A stretch of DNA of 34,132 nucleotides from Actinomycetota bacterium (GTDB lineage Bacteria > Actinomycetota > Actinomycetes > S36-B12): assembly GCA_017857875.1 (NCBI GenBank), contig JAFMCH010000017.1, positions 1 to 34,132 on the forward strand, written 5' to 3'. Both the position numbers and the translations under genes were made by a program. The notes below the pieces were generated by a model. That model made no database searches and was not told the DNA's origin. It saw nothing but the letters and a program-made list of their open reading frames with translations. The stretch's first letter is position 1. The number at the start of each line of letters is the position of its first letter. Of this stretch, positions 23,398 through 32,147 are shown in pieces.

Positions 23398-24048
23398 TTG
23401 GCAGCGGAGACCTCGCAGACCCTGGATCGTGGTTTGCGAGTGCTCAAGCTGCTGGCGCACACTCCCGACGGGTTAACGATCACGGAGATTGCCGCATCGT
23501 TATCCATGGGACGCACGGTGGTCTATCGGCTGGTGGTCACCCTTGAACAACACGGGCTGGTGCGGCGCTCGGTTGATGGGCGCTGCAGGTTGGGGCTCGG
23601 AGTGCTGGCCCTCGCTCGGCAAGCGCAGCCTTTGTTGCGCGAGGCAGCGGCGCCGGTGCTGCGCACGCTGGCTGACACGACGGCGGCCACCGCCTACCTT
23701 GGGGTAGTCGATGCTGGTGAACTACTCACCATCGCCGGTGCCGAACCATCGCGGGCTGACGTACATGTGGCGTATCACATTGGCGCGCGCGCACCTCTTG
23801 AGCGTGGTGCGGCGGGAAGGGCCATCTTGGCCTCCCGCACAACCGGCGGGCGGCCGTTGGAGCCGCCCTGGGTGGTGTCTACGGGGGATGCTGCCACCGG
23901 CGGCTTTGGTATCGCTGCTGTGGTAACGGGGATTGCCGGGGTCGAGGCAGTCGTCGGTGTGATCGCCCTTGCCGAACCGCCAGAACAGGTAGTGGGGCCG
24001 TTAGTCAGCCAGGCCGCCACAGAGATTTCGATTGCCCTGATGGAATAG
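23398..24048 (+). CDS. IclR-family transcriptional regulator
   Basis: A 216-residue DNA-binding protein. A winged helix-turn-helix occupies residues 5-65 (SQTLDRGLRVLKLLAHTPDGLTITEIAASL in parts, SMGRTVVYRLVVTLEQHGLV, RRCRLG-like wing) and a shortened GAF-like effector domain follows (LRTLADTTAATAYLGVVDAG, HIGARAPLERGAAGRAILAS). Family members are usually about 250 residues; the C-terminal effector part here is about 30 shorter, and the ligand is unknown. The TTG at 23398 has a weak AGAAAG 8 nt upstream and gives the canonical N-terminus. Likely targets are the flanking HdeD-like and GH18 genes, since dyads sit upstream of itself and of GH18. Confidence 0.88.
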   Translation: MAAETSQTLDRGLRVLKLLAHTPDGLTITEIAASLSMGRTVVYRLVVTLEQHGLVRRSVDGRCRLGLGVLALARQAQPLLREAAAPVLRTLADTTAATAYLGVVDAGELLTIAGAEPSRADVHVAYHIGARAPLERGAAGRAILASRTTGGRPLEPPWVVSTGDAATGGFGIAAVVTGIAGVEAVVGVIALAEPPEQVVGPLVSQAATEISIALME

Positions 24049-24073
24049 GTACCGGGTGTCTGTCTAGCCGGCG

Positions 24074-24091
24074 TGAAATTAGGGAATTTCA
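24074..24091. promoter_or_regulatory. AT-rich inverted repeat upstream of the GH18 gene
   Basis: TGAAATT (24074-24080) and AATTTCA (24085-24091) are a perfect 7-bp inverted repeat with a 4-bp centre. They sit 26 bp after the IclR stop and about 100 bp before the GH18 start. It is unusually AT-rich for this window. It may be an operator, or a weak terminator for the IclR gene. Confidence 0.4.
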
Positions 24092-24103
24092 TCGGAAAAG
24101 TCC

Positions 24104-24114
24104 TCGTGACACGA
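24104..24114. promoter_or_regulatory. Short dyad TCGTG-A-CACGA upstream of the GH18 gene
   Basis: Perfect 5-bp arms around one base, 76 bp before the GH18 start. It is short enough to occur by chance; noted because it lies beside the larger repeat at 24074-24091. Confidence 0.25.
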
Positions 24115-24189
24115 CCGTGGTGAACCGCATGGAACGTCACCGCGTCGTACCGTGAAGTGTCGGTCTATCGATTCAAGAAAGGGTGCTCA

Positions 24190-26049
24190 GTGCGATTTCG
24201 AGCCCTAGGCACGGCCCTCATCGGTGCTGTCGCGAGCGGTGCTGTGGTCGCGGGGACGCTCCTCGCAGGCCCGGCTGCTGCTGATGTGGCACCTAAGCAG
24301 CTGGTGACGGGCTGGTTTGGCTATTGGGCCTCCGACGCCCAGGTGCGCGAGATGGCCGAGAAGTCCGCCGGTGTCGTCGATGAGGTCAGCATGTTCTGGT
24401 GGGCCTTCAATGGCGCCGATGAACCACTATGCACCTACGACAAGGCCGACCTCGATCGAGACGGCCTGACCGGTGAGTGTCAGGCCTCCTCAAGCACTCC
24501 GTGGACTAATTCCGGATTCGCTCGACAGCGCGATATTTTGCAGGAGGCTGGAATTCGCATCCAAGCCTCGATCACCGATCTGAGTTCCTTTCGAGCCGGC
24601 CAGTTATCGACATATCTGGGCAGTGAAAAGCGGCGCGCGGCTTATGCCCGCCAGATCGCCAACTGGGCGACCAAGGCCGGCGTTGACGGCGTCGACCTAG
24701 ACATGGAGAACTTCGCCTTCAACGATGATCGCGACACCTGGCCCGTGACGCAAAAGCGCTGGGTGGCCTTCATCGATGTGCTGGGATCGACCCTGCGCGA
24801 GGCAGGACTCACGTTGTCGGCAACGGTGCCCGGTGGTTGGGCAACATCGAGTCCTAGCACCGGTTATTGGGTGTACGCATGGGATCAAATCATCGACGAC
24901 ATCGATCGCCTCATCATCATGGCTTATGACTACAGTTGGAACTCTCCGGGCGCGATCGGCCCCAACGACTGGGCGGCCAAGGTGGTGGAGCGAGCCATCA
25001 CCGACGTCGGTGCGAACAATGCCGACAAGATTTGGATCGGGACGCCCCAGTACGGCCGGAATTGGATTCGGACCTCCAACGGCAGTGCCCTGACCGCCGG
25101 TAGCTGCCCTGCGAGCTGGACCCCGGATTCAAGCTTGACGCGGATCACGGTCACCCCTGCCTCGGCACTTGACCTAGCCGCACGCGAGGGCGTGACACCG
25201 ACCTGGAATCCCACCCAGGGCGAATGGAGTTTTCGATACAACCGGGTGACCTCGGGCTCCGCCAACGGCAAGAGCCGGGAGTGCACGGCCAAGCGTGAGG
25301 TGTGGTTCGCCGATACGCGCTCGGCGCTGACCCGCGCGAGCCTGGTGCCCGATTACGGAATCGGCGGCATCGCCGTATGGAACTTCGGCAATGTGCTGCC
25401 CGACTTCTATCCCCGCTTAGCCGAATATGGTCGCAAGATCGCCCCCGCACCGGTCACGGTTTCGGTGTCGGCACCCAAGCGTGTGACCTATGCGGGCAAT
25501 GCCCGAATCAACGTGACGGTCACCTCGGCTAAAGGTGCTCCGGCTAACGCGAAGGCCACCTTGTTGTGGGCTGCCGGCACTGACAAGGACCAAAACGCGA
25601 ACCAGGCAGATGCAACACCCGTCGCCACCACCAGTCTGGATTCATCTGGCAAAGCGACGTTTCGAACTCCGGTCACCGAGTCTGGACGTTTCTGGGTGAC
25701 CGTGGCCGCCACCACGCAGACAGGCGCCGGTGAATCTTCGGCCACGGTAACCAAGGCTGCCTGGCGGGTGTCGAAGGACGACAAGAGTCTGTCCACCACC
25801 GTTCGCCAGCCCGTTGCCGTGTCGGCTCAGGTATCCCCGGGAGTTGCTGGCGTCTCGGTTCGGGTGCAGCGGAAGTCCAATGATGGATGGAAAACCGTCA
25901 AGAAGCTCAACACCGATGCCGACGGCACGGTGTCCACGCAGGTATCGGCAACCAAACCCAAGCAGTTGCGCGTGCGGTTTGTTGCCGTGAGTAGCCAGGG
26001 CTATGTCGGTGGTCGCACCGGTGCCATCACGATCGAGGTCGTGAAGTAG
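24190..26049 (+). CDS. Secreted glycoside hydrolase family 18 protein with Ig-like domains
   Basis: A 619-residue secreted protein. The signal peptide covers about 1-34 (MRFRALGTALIGAVASGAVV...AAAD). A GH18 barrel spans about 40-415 with LVTGWFGYW at strand 1, the catalytic motif DGVDLDMENF (Asp166 to Glu173, the DxxDxDxE pattern intact), LIIMAYDYSW, and the last strand GGIAVWNFGNVLPDFY. Two Ig-like modules follow (from about 420 and 530), probably wall- or glycan-binding. Beta-1,4 linkages between N-acetylglucosamine units are the family target; chitin or peptidoglycan are both possible. GTG at 24190 is preceded by AGAAAGGG at 6-nt spacing and starts the signal peptide cleanly. The gene precedes clpS but is functionally separate. 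Confidence 0.87.
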   Translation: MRFRALGTALIGAVASGAVVAGTLLAGPAAADVAPKQLVTGWFGYWASDAQVREMAEKSAGVVDEVSMFWWAFNGADEPLCTYDKADLDRDGLTGECQASSSTPWTNSGFARQRDILQEAGIRIQASITDLSSFRAGQLSTYLGSEKRRAAYARQIANWATKAGVDGVDLDMENFAFNDDRDTWPVTQKRWVAFIDVLGSTLREAGLTLSATVPGGWATSSPSTGYWVYAWDQIIDDIDRLIIMAYDYSWNSPGAIGPNDWAAKVVERAITDVGANNADKIWIGTPQYGRNWIRTSNGSALTAGSCPASWTPDSSLTRITVTPASALDLAAREGVTPTWNPTQGEWSFRYNRVTSGSANGKSRECTAKREVWFADTRSALTRASLVPDYGIGGIAVWNFGNVLPDFYPRLAEYGRKIAPAPVTVSVSAPKRVTYAGNARINVTVTSAKGAPANAKATLLWAAGTDKDQNANQADATPVATTSLDSSGKATFRTPVTESGRFWVTVAATTQTGAGESSATVTKAAWRVSKDDKSLSTTVRQPVAVSAQVSPGVAGVSVRVQRKSNDGWKTVKKLNTDADGTVSTQVSATKPKQLRVRFVAVSSQGYVGGRTGAITIEVVK

Positions 26050-26085: not shown

Positions 26086-26394
26086 ATGCTGGTGACTGTG
26101 ACTGCCCCGACTGAGTTGGAAAGCCCCGTGGTCGACCCCGACGTGTGGGTTGACCATCCCTGGATCACGGTCGTGTGGAATGACCCGATCAATCTGATGT
26201 CCTATGTGACATACGTATTCACCTCGTACTTTGGCTACTCCAAGGAGCAGGCCGAAACGCTGATGATTCAGGTGCATGAAGAGGGCCGAGCGGTGGTATC
26301 AAACGGATCCCGTGAGGAAATGGAACGCGATGTAGCCGCAATGCATTCCTATGGACTGTGGGCGACACTGGCTAAGGATGGCCCGGGTACATGA
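26086..26394 (+). CDS. clpS: ClpS, adaptor of the Clp protease (N-end rule)
   Basis: A 102-residue cytosolic adaptor that binds proteins with destabilising N-terminal residues and hands them to the ClpC/ClpP machine. After a flexible N-terminus the family core is clear: [20 protein letters not shown], then [20 protein letters not shown], and the end [10 protein letters not shown]. The Asn-Asp pair in the WNDP segment contributes to the N-degron pocket. It is translationally coupled to the DUF2017 gene by an ATGA overlap, the same pair as in other actinobacteria (Rv1331-Rv1332). Confidence 0.95.
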
Positions 26395-26951
26395 GTGATC
26401 AGGTAGTGCACGGATTCACCCGTTCTGCCACTGGTCGCATCGTGTTGCGCATTGATGACCTTGAACGCGGGCTGCTGAGTAGTCTGCTCGAGCAACTCAT
26501 GGAGATCTTGCAACCTGAGGATCGTGAAGTGGGCGATCCGTTGCAGGATCTGGTGGGTATCGATGCGCACGCCGAGCCGCCTTCAGATGACGTTCTTGCT
26601 CGGCTTCTCCCTGATGCCTATTCCGATGATCTGGAGGCGGCTGCAGACTTCCGGCGTTTCACCGAGCGCGGCCTGCGGCAGGATAAAATTGCACACGCAC
26701 GTCAGGCTCTGGATTCGTTGGCTGCTTCGGGAGCGAAGGTGACGGTATCGCCAGACCAGGCGCATTCCTGGCTGCTCGCGCTCACCGATCTACGGTTGGC
26801 CCTGGGTACGCGGCTGGGTGTGAGTGAGGACAACCACGATGAGTTGATTGCCCGGGCCGAGCAAGACCCGCAGGCCAGCGCCATTCACGTGTATGACTGG
26901 TTGACCTACCTAGCAGAAACATTGGTGCGCTGCCTTCAATCCGAGGATTGA
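26391..26951 (+). CDS. DUF2017 protein
   Basis: A 186-residue, acidic, mostly helical cytosolic protein of the actinobacterial DUF2017 family, defined by the N-terminal segment [25 protein letters not shown] (in two parts), [24 protein letters not shown] and the C-terminal [20 protein letters not shown] then [15 protein letters not shown]. It overlaps clpS by 4 nt (ATGA), so the two are coupled and may act together in Clp-dependent proteolysis; the family function is not established. Its last codons form the left arm of a long hairpin shared with the rhodopsin gene's 3' end. Confidence 0.88.
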
Positions 26952-26968
26952 CGACAGCGCACCAATGT
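26919..26968. terminator. Long nested hairpin between the DUF2017 and rhodopsin genes
   Basis: A perfect 14-bp inverted repeat (26919-26932 with 26955-26968, arms ACATTGGTGCGCTG / CAGCGCACCAATGT) encloses a second stem, TCAATC(C) 26936-26942 with (G)GATTGA 26945-26951. The fold is nearly continuous over 50 nt and includes the DUF2017 stop codon. It lies 20 bp past the end of the rhodopsin gene, so it can stop transcription from both sides. Only a short T-rich run (TTTCT) follows on the rhodopsin strand. Confidence 0.65.
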
Positions 26969-26988
26969 GTTGTGCAGGAAGTAGCTGC

Positions 26989-27825
26989 TTACGCCGAGGC
27001 GTCAGCCTTCTTTGCTGGGATGTCCTTTGTTTCCTGTGCCTCGAAGGCAGGATCGTCATCGAAGCTCTTGATGCGAGCGATCTTGTAGATCAGCAGGCCG
27101 TACAGACACTTGGCTAGCACGTCTGCAACGGAATAGCCGATCTGGCGGTAGACGAACGAGTCTGCACCGTCGATCCCGAACATCGGGAACATGTACGAGA
27201 TCGGGTACACACCCCACGTGGCAAGGAGCAGCCAGCGCAGACCAGCGAGCTCTTTGCCGACCTGGTTGGGCTGGTTCTTTGCCGCACGGCTGAGTTCCAC
27301 GAACAAGACGTACAAGATGTAGAGGAACGGAATCGTCGATAGCGCACCCCACACCGCCTTGGGTGCGATCTCGTTGGTGATCTCACCGGGGTAGCCCAGA
27401 ATGATCATCAGTGCCGAAGCAGGAATCAACTTCCACAGCAGCGAACTGCGCACCGCGCGCGGCAACGCCAACACTGCGATCGTTTCAAACAACAACAGCG
27501 GCACGGTGAGCAGCCAGTCAACGTAGCGGTAGCCCTCGTTGAAGCCAACACCCTTAACAAGCTCGTAAGACTCCGCAACACCAGCCGTGTCAACCCCAAC
27601 AGCGATGTAAGCCTCGGAGAAGGAGTTGAAAATCCTGAAGTAGTGATACGCCGCGATCAAACACACCATCGACGAGACGACGAGGGCGATGCGATAACGC
27701 GGAAGAACCCGACCTTGAACAACAAGCAAGAAGATCGCCGTCGCCGCCATTGAGGCGAGGGCGAAGGACAAGACGTTATAGACAGCTTGGAACTGCCCAT
27801 TCGTCAGCATTTCAACATTTGCCAC
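26989..27825 (-). CDS. Proton-pumping rhodopsin (actinorhodopsin/xanthorhodopsin type)
   Basis: Seven-helix retinal protein of about 278 residues that uses light to pump protons out of the cell. Numbering from the ATG at 27831: His63 (AYHYF) and Asp105, Thr109, Glu116 in RYVDWLLTVPLLLFE give the D-T-E signature of an outward proton pump. Leu113 at the tuning position predicts green absorption. Asp237 and the retinal Lys241 are in SVADVLAKCLYG. Gly146 in MIILGYPGE matches the small residue that leaves room for a carotenoid antenna in xanthorhodopsin. GTG at 27825 is preferred because GGAGG lies 7 nt upstream; it is only 1 nt from the ATG. The gene is antisense in the middle of the clpS-mec-cysOM cluster; no retinal or carotenoid genes are in the window. 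Confidence 0.95.
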   Translation of the reverse strand: MANVEMLTNGQFQAVYNVLSFALASMAATAIFLLVVQGRVLPRYRIALVVSSMVCLIAAYHYFRIFNSFSEAYIAVGVDTAGVAESYELVKGVGFNEGYRYVDWLLTVPLLLFETIAVLALPRAVRSSLLWKLIPASALMIILGYPGEITNEIAPKAVWGALSTIPFLYILYVLFVELSRAAKNQPNQVGKELAGLRWLLLATWGVYPISYMFPMFGIDGADSFVYRQIGYSVADVLAKCLYGLLIYKIARIKSFDDDPAFEAQETKDIPAKKADASA

Positions 27826-27832
27826 TTTCATA

Positions 27833-27837
27833 CCTCC
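27833..27837 (-). promoter_or_regulatory. Ribosome-binding site deciding the rhodopsin start
   Basis: GGAGG on the minus strand is 7 nt from GTG (27825) but only 1 nt from ATG (27831). Spacing favours the GTG, which shortens the protein by two residues. Confidence 0.6.
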
Positions 27838-27872
27838 GGGTAGGGGGTCTGGTCAGCCCAGGCCCCGCCTGC

Positions 27873-27900
27873 ACCGGCTCGGTATCCGATTCAAGCCGGT
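27873..27900 (-). promoter_or_regulatory. Hairpin in the rhodopsin 5' leader
   Basis: ACCGGCT (27873-27879 on the plus strand) and AGCCGGT (27894-27900) pair perfectly, and TCGG-TAT-CCGA at 27879-27889 can form an alternative inner stem. It lies in the presumed 75-nt leader, between the -10 box and the ribosome-binding site. It could stabilise the mRNA or control its translation. Confidence 0.4.
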
Positions 27901-27907
27901 TGGAGGG

Positions 27908-27938
27908 ACCATACTCCTGTGCACGGCTTTGCGCACAA
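27908..27938 (-). promoter_or_regulatory. Candidate rhodopsin promoter
   Basis: On the minus strand TTGTGC (27933-27938) and TATGGT (27908-27913) are separated by 19 bp, a slightly long but usable -35/-10 pair. A 5-bp dyad TGTGC/GCACA (27918-27922 with 27933-27937) overlaps the -35 box. Confidence 0.45.
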
Positions 27939-27950
27939 GTTGAACCATTT

Positions 27951-27977
27951 TCGGCGCGTTTGTTTTCTACGCGCCGA
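27951..27977. promoter_or_regulatory. 9-bp inverted repeat between the rhodopsin and mec promoters
   Basis: TCGGCGCGT (27951-27959) and ACGCGCCGA (27969-27977) are perfect inverted arms with a T-rich 9-bp spacer. The repeat lies just upstream of the rhodopsin -35 box and about 40 bp upstream of the mec -10 box, a natural position for a regulator acting on either gene. Confidence 0.5.
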
Positions 27978-28016
27978 TCCTGCTGCGGCGGGACGAACCG
28001 CTCACGCGCACGGCTC

Positions 28017-28022
28017 TAGAAT
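28017..28022 (+). promoter_or_regulatory. Candidate -10 box for mec (leaderless)
   Basis: TAGAAT ends 6 nt before the ATG at 28029; only GCCGGC lies between. It is close to the TATAAT consensus. Confidence 0.6.
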
Positions 28023-28028
28023 GCCGGC

Positions 28029-28466
28029 ATGTTGAAAATCGGGGCTCATCTCATCGCCGATGTGATCGCCCATGCTCGAGCCGATCACCCCGATGAGGCC
28101 TGTGGTGTCATCGCCGGGCCAGCCGGTTCTCAGGTGCCAACCCGGTTTATTCCCATGGTGAATGCGGCCCGATCGCCAACCTTCTATGAGTTTGACTCCC
28201 GCGATCTACTCGCCCTGTACCGGGAGATGGATGACCTCGATGAAGAGCCGATTGTGATTTATCACTCACACACCGCGACCGAGGCCTATCCATCACGGAC
28301 GGATATCGCCTTGGCAGGCGAACCAGGCGCTCATTACCTCTTGGTATCAACCCGCGACGAGGGTGCTGGTGTCGGGACAAGCGATACAGATGTTGAGATC
28401 AGGTCGTTTCGCATCGTAGATGGCGTGGTGACAGAGGAGCCGGTGGAGATTGTGCCGATGGCCTAG
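28029..28466 (+). CDS. mec: Mec-type JAMM metallopeptidase (M67)
   Basis: A 145-residue zinc peptidase that in M. tuberculosis removes newly formed cysteine from the C-terminus of the CysO carrier. The JAMM motif is complete: Glu23 in DEACGVIAG, then His79 and His81 with Asp92 in YHSHTATEAYPSRTD (HxH-x10-D). The MoaD-like carrier CysO and the synthase CysM follow, so the three make the sulfide-carrier route to cysteine, which resists oxidative stress. The start is ATG at 28029. In M. tuberculosis the gene before it is a DmpA-type peptidase; here that place is taken by the rhodopsin on the other strand. Confidence 0.93.
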   Translation: MLKIGAHLIADVIAHARADHPDEACGVIAGPAGSQVPTRFIPMVNAARSPTFYEFDSRDLLALYREMDDLDEEPIVIYHSHTATEAYPSRTDIALAGEPGAHYLLVSTRDEGAGVGTSDTDVEIRSFRIVDGVVTEEPVEIVPMA

Positions 28467-28588: not shown

Positions 28589-28861
28589 ATGTCTATCGAG
28601 GTTCGCATTCCGACCATCCTGCGCCCGTACACTGACGGCGCCAAGCAGGTTGAGGCGACCGGCGACACGTTGGCCGCGGTTATCGCAGACTTAGATGCGC
28701 GCCATGTTGGGCTGCGCGATCGACTGGTCGAGGATGGCGCCCTGCGTCGATTCATTAACGTCTACCTCAATGACGAGGATGTGCGGTTTCTCGGCGGTAT
28801 CGACACCCCGGTGGCCGATGGTGACTCCATCACGATCCTGCCCGCGGTTGCGGGCGGGTAA
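28589..28861 (+). CDS. cysO: CysO-type sulfur-carrier protein (MoaD/ThiS fold)
   Basis: A 90-residue ubiquitin-like protein ending in the required VAGG. The C-terminal Gly-Gly is adenylated and thiocarboxylated by a MoeZ-like enzyme (not in this window), then supplies sulfide to CysM; Mec trims the product. Fold features: VRIPTILRPYTDGAKQVEATGDTLAAVIADLDARH in two parts, then LRDRLVEDGALRRFINVYLN and the hydrophobic ITILPAVAGG. The start ATG has AAGGGAG 10 nt upstream. A palindrome lies further upstream. cysM begins 13 bp downstream. Confidence 0.94.
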   Translation: MSIEVRIPTILRPYTDGAKQVEATGDTLAAVIADLDARHVGLRDRLVEDGALRRFINVYLNDEDVRFLGGIDTPVADGDSITILPAVAGG

Positions 28862-29821
<960 letters not shown>

Positions 29822-29832
29822 TCTGAACCACC

Positions 29833-30705
29833 ATGAGCCCTGCCAATATGCCTGATCGACCAATTGGAATCTTTGATTCCGGGGTGGGTGGACTCACCGT
29901 TGCGCGGGCGGTGCTTGATCAACTCCCGCACGAGCCCATTTATTACGTGGGTGACACCGCGCGCGGGCCCTATGGTCCGCTCTCGATCGCCCAGGTACGC
30001 GCCTTCGCCCTAGATGTCATGGATCACCTTGTGGATGCCGGCGTCAAAATGCTTGTGATTGCCTGTAATTCTGCGAGCGCGGCGGTGCTACGCGATGCGC
30101 GCGAGCGATATGACGTGCCGGTGGTTGAGGTCGTGCACCCTGCCGTTCGTCGCGCGGTTCGGGCTACTCGGTCGGGTCGGGTCGGCGTGATCGGCACGCA
30201 AGCCACTATTGCCAGCGGCGCCTATGCCGATGCTTTTGCGGCAGCCCCTGACCTCACGCTGTCAGCGCAGGCTTGTCCGAGATTCGTTGAGTTCGTCGAG
30301 CAGGGGAGTACCTCGGGCCCCGAACTGATCGACCTCGCCGAGGAATACCTCGCCCCGTTGGTCGAGGCAGACATCGACACGCTCGTCTTGGGTTGCACCC
30401 ATTACCCGCTGTTGACCGGGGTGATCTCCTACGTCATGGGCGAGTCAGTGACCCTCGTCTCAAGTGCTGAAGAAACGGCCAAGGATGTCTATCGCACGCT
30501 CGTGGCCTACGACCTCCTGCGTGCCGATGACGACCACGAGCCCCAGCACCGATTCGTCGCCACGGGTGACGCGGTTGACTTCGCACGCCTTGGACGACGT
30601 TTTCTGGGCCCCGAAATCGGCTTGGTGGAGCATGCCTTGCCGGTCTCACTGCCGGCCAATGACGACGGCCTACCGACATCCTCATCAGTACCAGCGCGCA
30701 GATAG
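29833..30705 (+). CDS. murI: Glutamate racemase
   Basis: Makes D-glutamate for peptidoglycan. The 290-residue protein has [16 protein letters not shown] at the N-terminus, [11 protein letters not shown], the first catalytic cysteine Cys78 in [12 protein letters not shown] and the second, Cys188, in [10 protein letters not shown]. The start could also be the ATG five codons in. The usual actinobacterial neighbours between cysM and rph (a rhomboid protease, and a metallo-hydrolase after murI) are missing here. The following rph gene starts 10 bp past the stop and its -10 box contains that stop codon. Confidence 0.95.
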
Positions 30706-30715: not shown

Positions 30716-31462
30716 ATGACTCGCAGCGATGGCCGCAGTGCCCACGAACTTCGTCCAGTCACGTTTGAGCGGGGCTGGCTGGAGCAAGCAGAAGGCTCAA
30801 CGCTGGTGTCCTTTGGTCGCACTCGCGTGCTGTGCACGGCCTCGTTCACGCCCGGCGTACCCAGGTGGTTACGTGATTCCGGTCGAGGTTGGGTCACGGC
30901 GGAGTATGCGATGTTGCCCCGAGCGACCAACACCCGCAATGACCGAGAGTCGGTCAAGGGCAAACTGGGCGGGCGCACGCAGGAAATTTCCCGCCTGATC
31001 GGCCGCAGTCTGCGCGCGGTTATCGATACGTCCGCGCTGGGGGAAAACACCGTCGTGATCGATTGTGACGTGTTGCAGGCCGACGGTGGCACTCGCACCG
31101 CTGCTATCACTGGCGCTTATGTTGCCCTTGCTGACGCATTGACCTGGGCTCGCGAGCAGGGCTTCGTCAAGGGGGATCCGCTTCGCGACTCTGTTGCGGC
31201 GGTAAGCGTGGGCATCATTGATGGGCAAGTTCGGCTAGATCTGCACTATGACGACGATGTTCGGGCCGACACCGACATGAACGTCGTGATGACCGGCGAT
31301 GGGCGATTTGTCGAGGTGCAGGGCACAGCCGAGGGTGAGCCATTTGCCAAAGATCTCCTCGATCAACTGCTCTCCCTAGCCTCAGCCGGTTGCGCTGACC
31401 TGACGCGGATGCAACTGACCGCTCTTGATGGGCCTGTGATCGAACCATCGGGGCATCCATGA
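30716..31462 (+). CDS. rph: Ribonuclease PH
   Basis: A 248-residue phosphorolytic 3'-5' exoribonuclease that trims tRNA 3' ends. Conserved parts: [22 protein letters not shown] near the start (in two parts), [17 protein letters not shown], the RNA-binding [37 protein letters not shown] and, near the end, [11 protein letters not shown]. The ATG at 30716 gives the standard N-terminus ([14 protein letters not shown]); upstream in-frame codons are shadow sequence of murI. rdgB overlaps the stop by 4 nt (ATGA) and is translationally coupled. Confidence 0.95.
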
Positions 31463-32061
31463 CGCCCTCGGTTGTCTTGGCGACTCGAAACGCACACAAG
31501 CTCGATGAGGTGCGGCGTATCCTGGCCGACGTCGGTATCGCGATCGAGATCGTGCCCCTTCCCGACGACGCACCCGATGTGGTCGAGTCAGGTTCCACCT
31601 TCGGTGCCAATGCTGTGCTGAAGGCGCGCTCGGCTGCCGCACACACGGGTATGCCAGCCATCGCTGATGATTCCGGGCTCTGCGTAGATGCGCTCAACGG
31701 GATGCCCGGCGTGCTGTCTGCCCGGTGGTGCGGCCGTCACGGGGACGATCAGGCAAACGTGAATCTACTCCTCGCCCAGATGATGGATATCGCACCGCTA
31801 CGTCGTGGGGCACAGTTCGTGTGTGCTGTTGCGCTGGTGGTGCCGGACACAGGCAGCGAGCAATTGGTCGAAGGGGTGATGGAGGGCCGAATCGCTGAGC
31901 AGCCGCGAGGCAGTAACGGATTCGGCTATGACCCAATTTTTGTGCCCGACAGGATGTCTGAGACGACCGCGCAGATGAGCGCTGACCAGAAGGACGCCTT
32001 GAGTCACCGCGGCCAGGCGCTTCGATCGATGGCTTCGTTGATTGCCGCTGAACTCACCTAA
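31459..32061 (+). CDS. rdgB: XTP/dITP pyrophosphatase (RdgB/HAM1)
   Basis: A 200-residue housecleaning enzyme that hydrolyses deaminated purine nucleotides (XTP, ITP, dITP) to the monophosphate so they are not built into nucleic acids. Signature: [18 protein letters not shown] at the N-terminus, [37 protein letters not shown] with the catalytic Asp, [15 protein letters not shown], and SHRGQAL near the end. The rph-rdgB pair is conserved in actinobacteria. It is convergent with the tRNA-Leu gene, leaving only 3 bp between the stop codon and the tRNA 3' end. Confidence 0.96.
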
Positions 32062-32064
32062 CGG

Positions 32065-32147
32065 TGCGGGTGGAGGGACTTGAACCCTCACGTCCAAAGG
32101 ACACAGGATCCTAAATCCTGCGCGTCTGCCAATTCCGCCACACCCGC
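32065..32147 (-). tRNA. tRNA-Leu (anticodon UAG)
   Basis: A complete class II tRNA on the minus strand. Acceptor arms GCGGGTG and CACCCGC pair fully with discriminator A. The anticodon stem CAGGA/TCCTG holds the loop TTTAGGA (anticodon TAG, reads CUA). The long variable arm (GTCC-TTT-GGAC) identifies leucine, and the T-arm is GAGGG-TTCAAGT-CCCTC. CCA is not encoded. Confidence 0.97.

Follow-up and report, generated by a model that had tools for sequence, protein, structure and literature searches.

An actinorhodopsin gene antisense in a conserved housekeeping block of Nanopelagicales, with a conserved promoter-like element and a mixed site history

The window, by which we mean the whole 34,132-nucleotide stretch of DNA analysed, carries eight housekeeping genes in the order ClpS, DUF2017, Mec, CysO, CysM, MurI, Rph, and RdgB and, antisense between DUF2017 and Mec, a rhodopsin gene (Table 1). 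Pfam matches and coordinates confirmed this arrangement as the original prediction had described it, and the flanks follow the order of the M. tuberculosis Rv1331-Rv1341 block, which comprises the same eight genes in that order. The open reading frame at 26989-27831 on the minus strand (280 amino acids counted from its ATG) matched Bac_rhodopsin (PF01036) with 126.5 bits (E 1.4e-36; cut-off 24.6), and its product is the sole member of this family in the 2.27-Mb draft genome (96.8% complete). Translation more likely starts at GTG 27825 than at ATG 27831, because GGAGG lies 7 nt before the former and 1 nt before the latter and because the ATG is missing from G003, a 90%-identical relative; a start at this ATG is possible but would lie too near the Shine-Dalgarno sequence. 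Identical junctions in the independent records G003/L033 and L032 exclude an assembly join at 26950-28030. Upstream of ClpS, 23398-26049 encodes an IclR-type regulator and a GH18-like secreted protein; both remain near the block in many relatives, the GH18-like protein diverging fast (28-74% identity). No Rfam leader element was found in the window, the sole match being a tRNA at 32065-32147.

Table 1. Genes and putative expression signals at the rhodopsin locus, in window coordinates
Feature	Position	Strand	Basis or remark
ClpS	26086..26394	+	Pfam/NCBIfam
DUF2017 protein	26391..26951	+	Pfam/NCBIfam
Terminator-like hairpin, 14-bp perfect outer stem	26919..26968		-36.6 kcal/mol
Actinorhodopsin (xanthorhodopsin group) CDS	26989..27825	-	probable GTG start, 278 aa
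Shine-Dalgarno sequence GGAGG	27833..27837	-	7 nt 5' of GTG 27825
-10-like hexamer TATGGT of putative rhodopsin promoter	27908..27913	-	A +30 and T +34 conserved
-35 region element TTCAACTTGTGCGC, 2-nt TG insertion vs order consensus TTCAASTTGCGGG	27931..27944	-	comparison
Upstream block ACGCGCCGAAAATGG, akin to the TCGCGYCA of many relatives	27945..27959	-	comparison
Putative -10 TAGAAT of Mec	28017..28022	+	exactly 6 nt before Mec ATG
JAB-domain Mec-like protease	28029..28466	+	Pfam/NCBIfam
CysO-like ubiquitin-fold sulfur carrier (ThiS-like)	28589..28861	+	Pfam/NCBIfam
CysM/CysK-family cysteine synthase (PLP)	28874..29821	+	Pfam/NCBIfam
MurI glutamate racemase	29833..30705	+	Pfam/NCBIfam
Rph, RNase PH	30725..31462	+	Pfam/NCBIfam
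RdgB/Ham1	31459..32061	+	Pfam/NCBIfam

Actinorhodopsins are common in freshwater actinobacteria. In the rhodopsin tree, the window copy groups with the Nanopelagicales actinorhodopsins, inside a 16-row clade of genera g1, g7, and g8 plus the copies of family f4 (SH-aLRT 98). Its best relatives with a solved structure are 9hfk, Gloeobacter rhodopsin (GR; 6nwd), psXR, xanthorhodopsin (XR; 3ddl), and Kin4B8. The key residues are H61, D103, T107, L111, E114, G160, and K239 in the numbering of the 278-aa protein (plus 2 for 280 aa). Alignment identified the retinal-binding Lys in helix G (ADVLAK, aligned to GR, XR, and 9hfk), the DTE pump triad of acceptor Asp, Thr, and donor Glu with the acceptor-linked His (RYVDWLLTVPLLLFE and HYFRIF), the Leu of green tuning, and a Gly at the position of XR G156 (AVWG vs IIWG in GR and LWG in XR), which stands for an open fenestration for a carotenoid antenna. 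Judged by these residues, the window rhodopsin is of the green-light proton-pump type and is predicted to pump protons.

Comparison supports the self-contained unit that the original prediction had made of the rhodopsin gene, with a promoter-like element of its own, a hairpin behind it, and a separate putative -10 in front of mec. A generic sigma-70 scan found no promoter at the window rhodopsin, so the evidence for one comes from comparison. The promoter-like element occupies the stretch 83-134 nt ahead of GTG 27825, and its pattern is TTCAASTTGCGG, 17 nt, and NANNNT, with a weaker TCGCGYCA block upstream. The consensus TTCAASTTGCGGG was matched at 10 or more of its 13 positions in 44 of 66 Nanopelagicales upstream regions (at fewer than 10 in the remaining 22) and in 3 of 20 from other actinobacteria. 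Within 150 nt of a rhodopsin gene there were 43 such sites, or 37 when redundant ones were removed, relocated copies included. These 37 were chosen solely on the 13 consensus positions, and outside that selection 35 had A at +30 and 35 had T at +34, which corresponds to NANNNT placed 17 nt after TTGCGG. Compared with G003, the window copy is longer by two bases and hence has a spacing of 19 nt. The element precedes native copies and several relocated ones, and it would act as the promoter of the rhodopsin gene. The same pattern, TTCGACTTGCGG, with both A +30 and T +34, recurs at a rhodopsin from outside the order, in a Frankineae record (L105, position 5815); either transfer of the element or an origin predating Nanopelagicales may account for this.

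The exact 12-mer occurred 10 times in 15 genomes, with no enrichment over a reversed control. Four occurrences lay upstream of rhodopsin genes; of the six others, five were inside coding frames, and the sixth preceded a TetR-like gene but lacked the -10. Apart from one 9/12 match, the element was not found at blh or crtB loci. A light regulon sharing the element was rejected on these grounds, and, as the exact motif occurs essentially only at rhodopsin genes, it points to specific control.

On the other side of the gene, the terminator-like hairpin is common to the convergent 3' ends of DUF2017 and the rhodopsin gene, overlaps the coding end of DUF2017, and has a weak T-tract (TTTCT) on the minus strand. 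A hairpin with a stem of 9 bp or more followed the rhodopsin stop in 46 of 52 native-site genes and in 28 of 38 genes at other loci. A TANNNT placed 6 nt upstream of the mec start, or very nearly so, was present at 33 of the 38 occupied sites and at 12 of the 17 empty ones, and a control found it so placed at 1 of 288 other NTG start codons. Going by this placement, mec can probably be transcribed leaderless with or without the rhodopsin gene; since mec would keep its own -10 in both states, the boundary between DUF2017 and mec appears to tolerate a rhodopsin gene.

Among 59 Nanopelagicales genomes, the window's own included, 37 carried a rhodopsin gene and 22 did not. In 27 of the 37 the gene was at the native site, antisense beside DUF2017 and/or Mec, in families f1, f6, and f7 (the state of G025 was assigned from its contig), and in 10 it lay elsewhere in the chromosome. 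All four genomes of the window's genus have the site occupied in the same orientation. Outside the order, in Mycolicibacterium, Arthrobacter, Nesterenkonia, and others, the rhodopsin gene has other neighbors. The arrangement of the window is thus the common one in Nanopelagicales, and not the special insertion that had been predicted. That the rhodopsin gene had replaced a peptidase gene can likewise be rejected: the S58 peptidase (PF03576) had no match in the window genome or its genus, none was seen between DUF2017 and Mec in any of the 59 genomes (fragmented drafts), and the hits in 18 of the 59 always lay on a contig other than that of DUF2017.

Empty sites are closed, with 11-140 bp from DUF2017 to Mec. 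Comparison establishes a close pair of an occupied and an empty site in one genus, G022 and G029, whose flanks are alignable on both sides at 82-85% DNA identity and enclose 1068 bp (hairpin, rhodopsin gene, and promoter) in G022 and 11 bp in G029; the direction of change in this pair would be loss. One relocated f4 rhodopsin gene (L160, G042:C3, 2422-9066) lies downstream of frames that by eye resemble scpA-scpB-rluB-cmk-der, with an alpha/beta-hydrolase-like gene also nearby and DUF2017-Mec on a separate contig. Nine records (L032, L052, L053, L058, L060, L066, L088, L100, and L104) bear the titles Acidobacteria, Bifidobacterium breve, or Rubrivirga and hold contigs that cluster with those of Nanopelagicales or of other aquatic actinobacteria, which looks like mislabeling or mixed binning.

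Rhodopsin identity was compared with that of five markers (ClpS, DUF2017, MurI, Rph, and RdgB), which also gave the marker tree. Between genera, the two identities correlated with r=0.76 for native-site pairs and r=0.36 for pairs including a relocated copy, and relocated copies were the main outliers. The two f4 genomes shared 84-85% rhodopsin identity with genus g1 at 62-63% marker identity, an excess of about 4.9 sd, and G016 showed an excess of 4.6 sd against g11. The window rhodopsin, with a highest value of 1.7 sd, is mid-range for native-site genes and no outlier. Relocated and native copies differed with p 0.0003 in a Mann-Whitney test, which treats kindred genomes as independent. The protein tree puts the f4 copies together with g1, but AU tests did not reject a constraint that held f1 together without them (p-AU 0.113 for protein, 0.71 for all codon positions, and 0.42 for first plus second positions), and for this reason we call transfer of the relocated copies probable. 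No relative of the rhodopsin was found in viral contigs or phage records as a sign of a phage vehicle, and plasmid-borne relatives were distant (<60% identity). At the native site, inheritance appears to have been mostly vertical. The original prediction had named the same rhodopsin at the same place in relatives, inherited vertically throughout, as an outcome that would speak against it: the shared site and the mostly vertical descent were found, but not for the relocated copies.

Taken together, these observations make it highly probable that the gene has its own conserved promoter and shares a hairpin with DUF2017, that it occupies a tolerated boundary, has done so from early on, and was mostly inherited vertically there, that it was lost or probably transferred elsewhere, and that it has no tie to cysteine metabolism. 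The rhodopsin gene would be transcribed alone from TTCAASTTGCGG, 17 nt, and NANNNT and end in the strong hairpin. It would have been at the native site since early in the order; some lineages would have lost the whole cassette, and others would have gained a rhodopsin gene at other chromosomal places, several with the same promoter element. We consider it unlikely that the site is instead a repeated landing or exchange spot, at which rhodopsin genes were swapped or regained by homologous recombination in the flanks. In its favor, the marker tree requires no fewer than 11 changes among the three states (occupied, no rhodopsin, and elsewhere), and the site is filled in G022 but empty in its sister G029 and in genus g14; against it, native-site rhodopsin identity tracks marker identity, and the DNA tree places the G022 rhodopsin, which is no outlier, with L064 and g12, its kin by the markers.

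The window genome encodes Blh (G000:C43) and CrtB with two adjacent lycopene-cyclase-domain proteins (G000:C108), so that the host can probably make retinal, as far as gene content tells (CrtE and CrtI were outside the search). Blh (PF15461) was detectable in 14 of the 37 rhodopsin-bearing genomes, and no genome among G000-G058 had Blh without a rhodopsin. Its lack in the other 23, together with the lipid scrambling that an acI actinorhodopsin performs without retinal (PMC12805836), would suit a protein that is mainly a retinal-independent membrane protein, such as a lipid scramblase, with pumping secondary. We regard this as quite unlikely for the window rhodopsin, given the retinal genes in its genome and its fully intact set of pump residues.

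The suggested link to an oxidative-stress-resistant cysteine pathway was not supported by comparison. Mec-CysO-CysM do adjoin the rhodopsin gene in many genomes, but the downstream partner varies, being Mec in the acI-like family, with no CysO-CysM beside it, and MurI in others; the relocated copies and the L084/L091 loci have no cysteine neighbors, and genomes with empty sites keep the cysteine genes without a rhodopsin. The adjacency is therefore best read as one of location, not function, and, the rhodopsin and mec units being divergent with separate putative promoters, retention beside cysO/cysM for a shared light or oxidative-stress function is very improbable. Just as improbable is a recent horizontal insertion into the block in the window's lineage in place of a peptidase gene: the block equals that of M. 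tuberculosis save for the rhodopsin, and relatives with empty sites exist, but the site is occupied in the same orientation throughout the genus and in three families, the gene is neither absent from close kin nor out of step with the markers, its GC content (0.57) is like that of its surroundings (0.57-0.63), and no relative has S58 at the site.

The conserved promoter element and the fixed site offer a way into the question of how these bacteria turn phototrophy on, and the lost and relocated states let vertical loss be told from horizontal regain. We offer, as a speculation that is more doubtful than not, that TCGCGYCA, about 6 nt, TTCAASTTGCGG, 17 nt, and NANNNT form the site at which a regulator dedicated to actinorhodopsin, and responsive to light or energy, would bind, and that gene and element are a portable phototrophy cassette of about 1 kb, lost at one ancestral site and regained elsewhere in Nanopelagicales. 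The searchable literature, which left most subscription papers (including those of 2008-2009 and 2018 on actinorhodopsin) outside its scope, held no account of the conserved site, the promoter element, or the regulation of actinorhodopsin. What is new here is modest, namely, a rhodopsin promoter that is conserved and possibly dedicated to this gene, and the history of its site.

Compared with the M. tuberculosis block, the window adds the antisense rhodopsin gene between DUF2017 and Mec, and its genome lacks the S58 peptidase. M. tuberculosis has a rhomboid gene between CysM and MurI; the gap there is 11 bp in the window, so that it has no rhomboid gene at this place, and about 500-800 bp in several relatives (L034, L043, and others). 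A gene, rhomboid in M. tuberculosis, was possibly lost from between CysM and MurI in the window.

Gloeobacter rhodopsin (aligned over residues 7-270, 265 bits) and xanthorhodopsin (residues 7-263, 219 bits) share the key residues with the window protein, among them the Gly at XR G156; both belong to other hosts, and the window protein is at most a candidate for carotenoid binding. In ActR-13023 a Gly also aligns with G156 of XR, and canthaxanthin binding is absent (PMC8113403). Actinorhodopsins, their pumping, and the frequent absence of blh in acI are already known (PMC5301498, PMC12805836, PMC8113403). The window genome differs from many actinorhodopsin-bearing relatives in encoding Blh. The window rhodopsin belongs to the same sequence group as acI ActR, ActR-13023, and Rhodoluna RlActR, whose hosts are freshwater actinobacteria (PMC8113403, PMC11790970), and has in common with them the pump motif, the tuning Leu, the fenestration Gly, and the retinal Lys.
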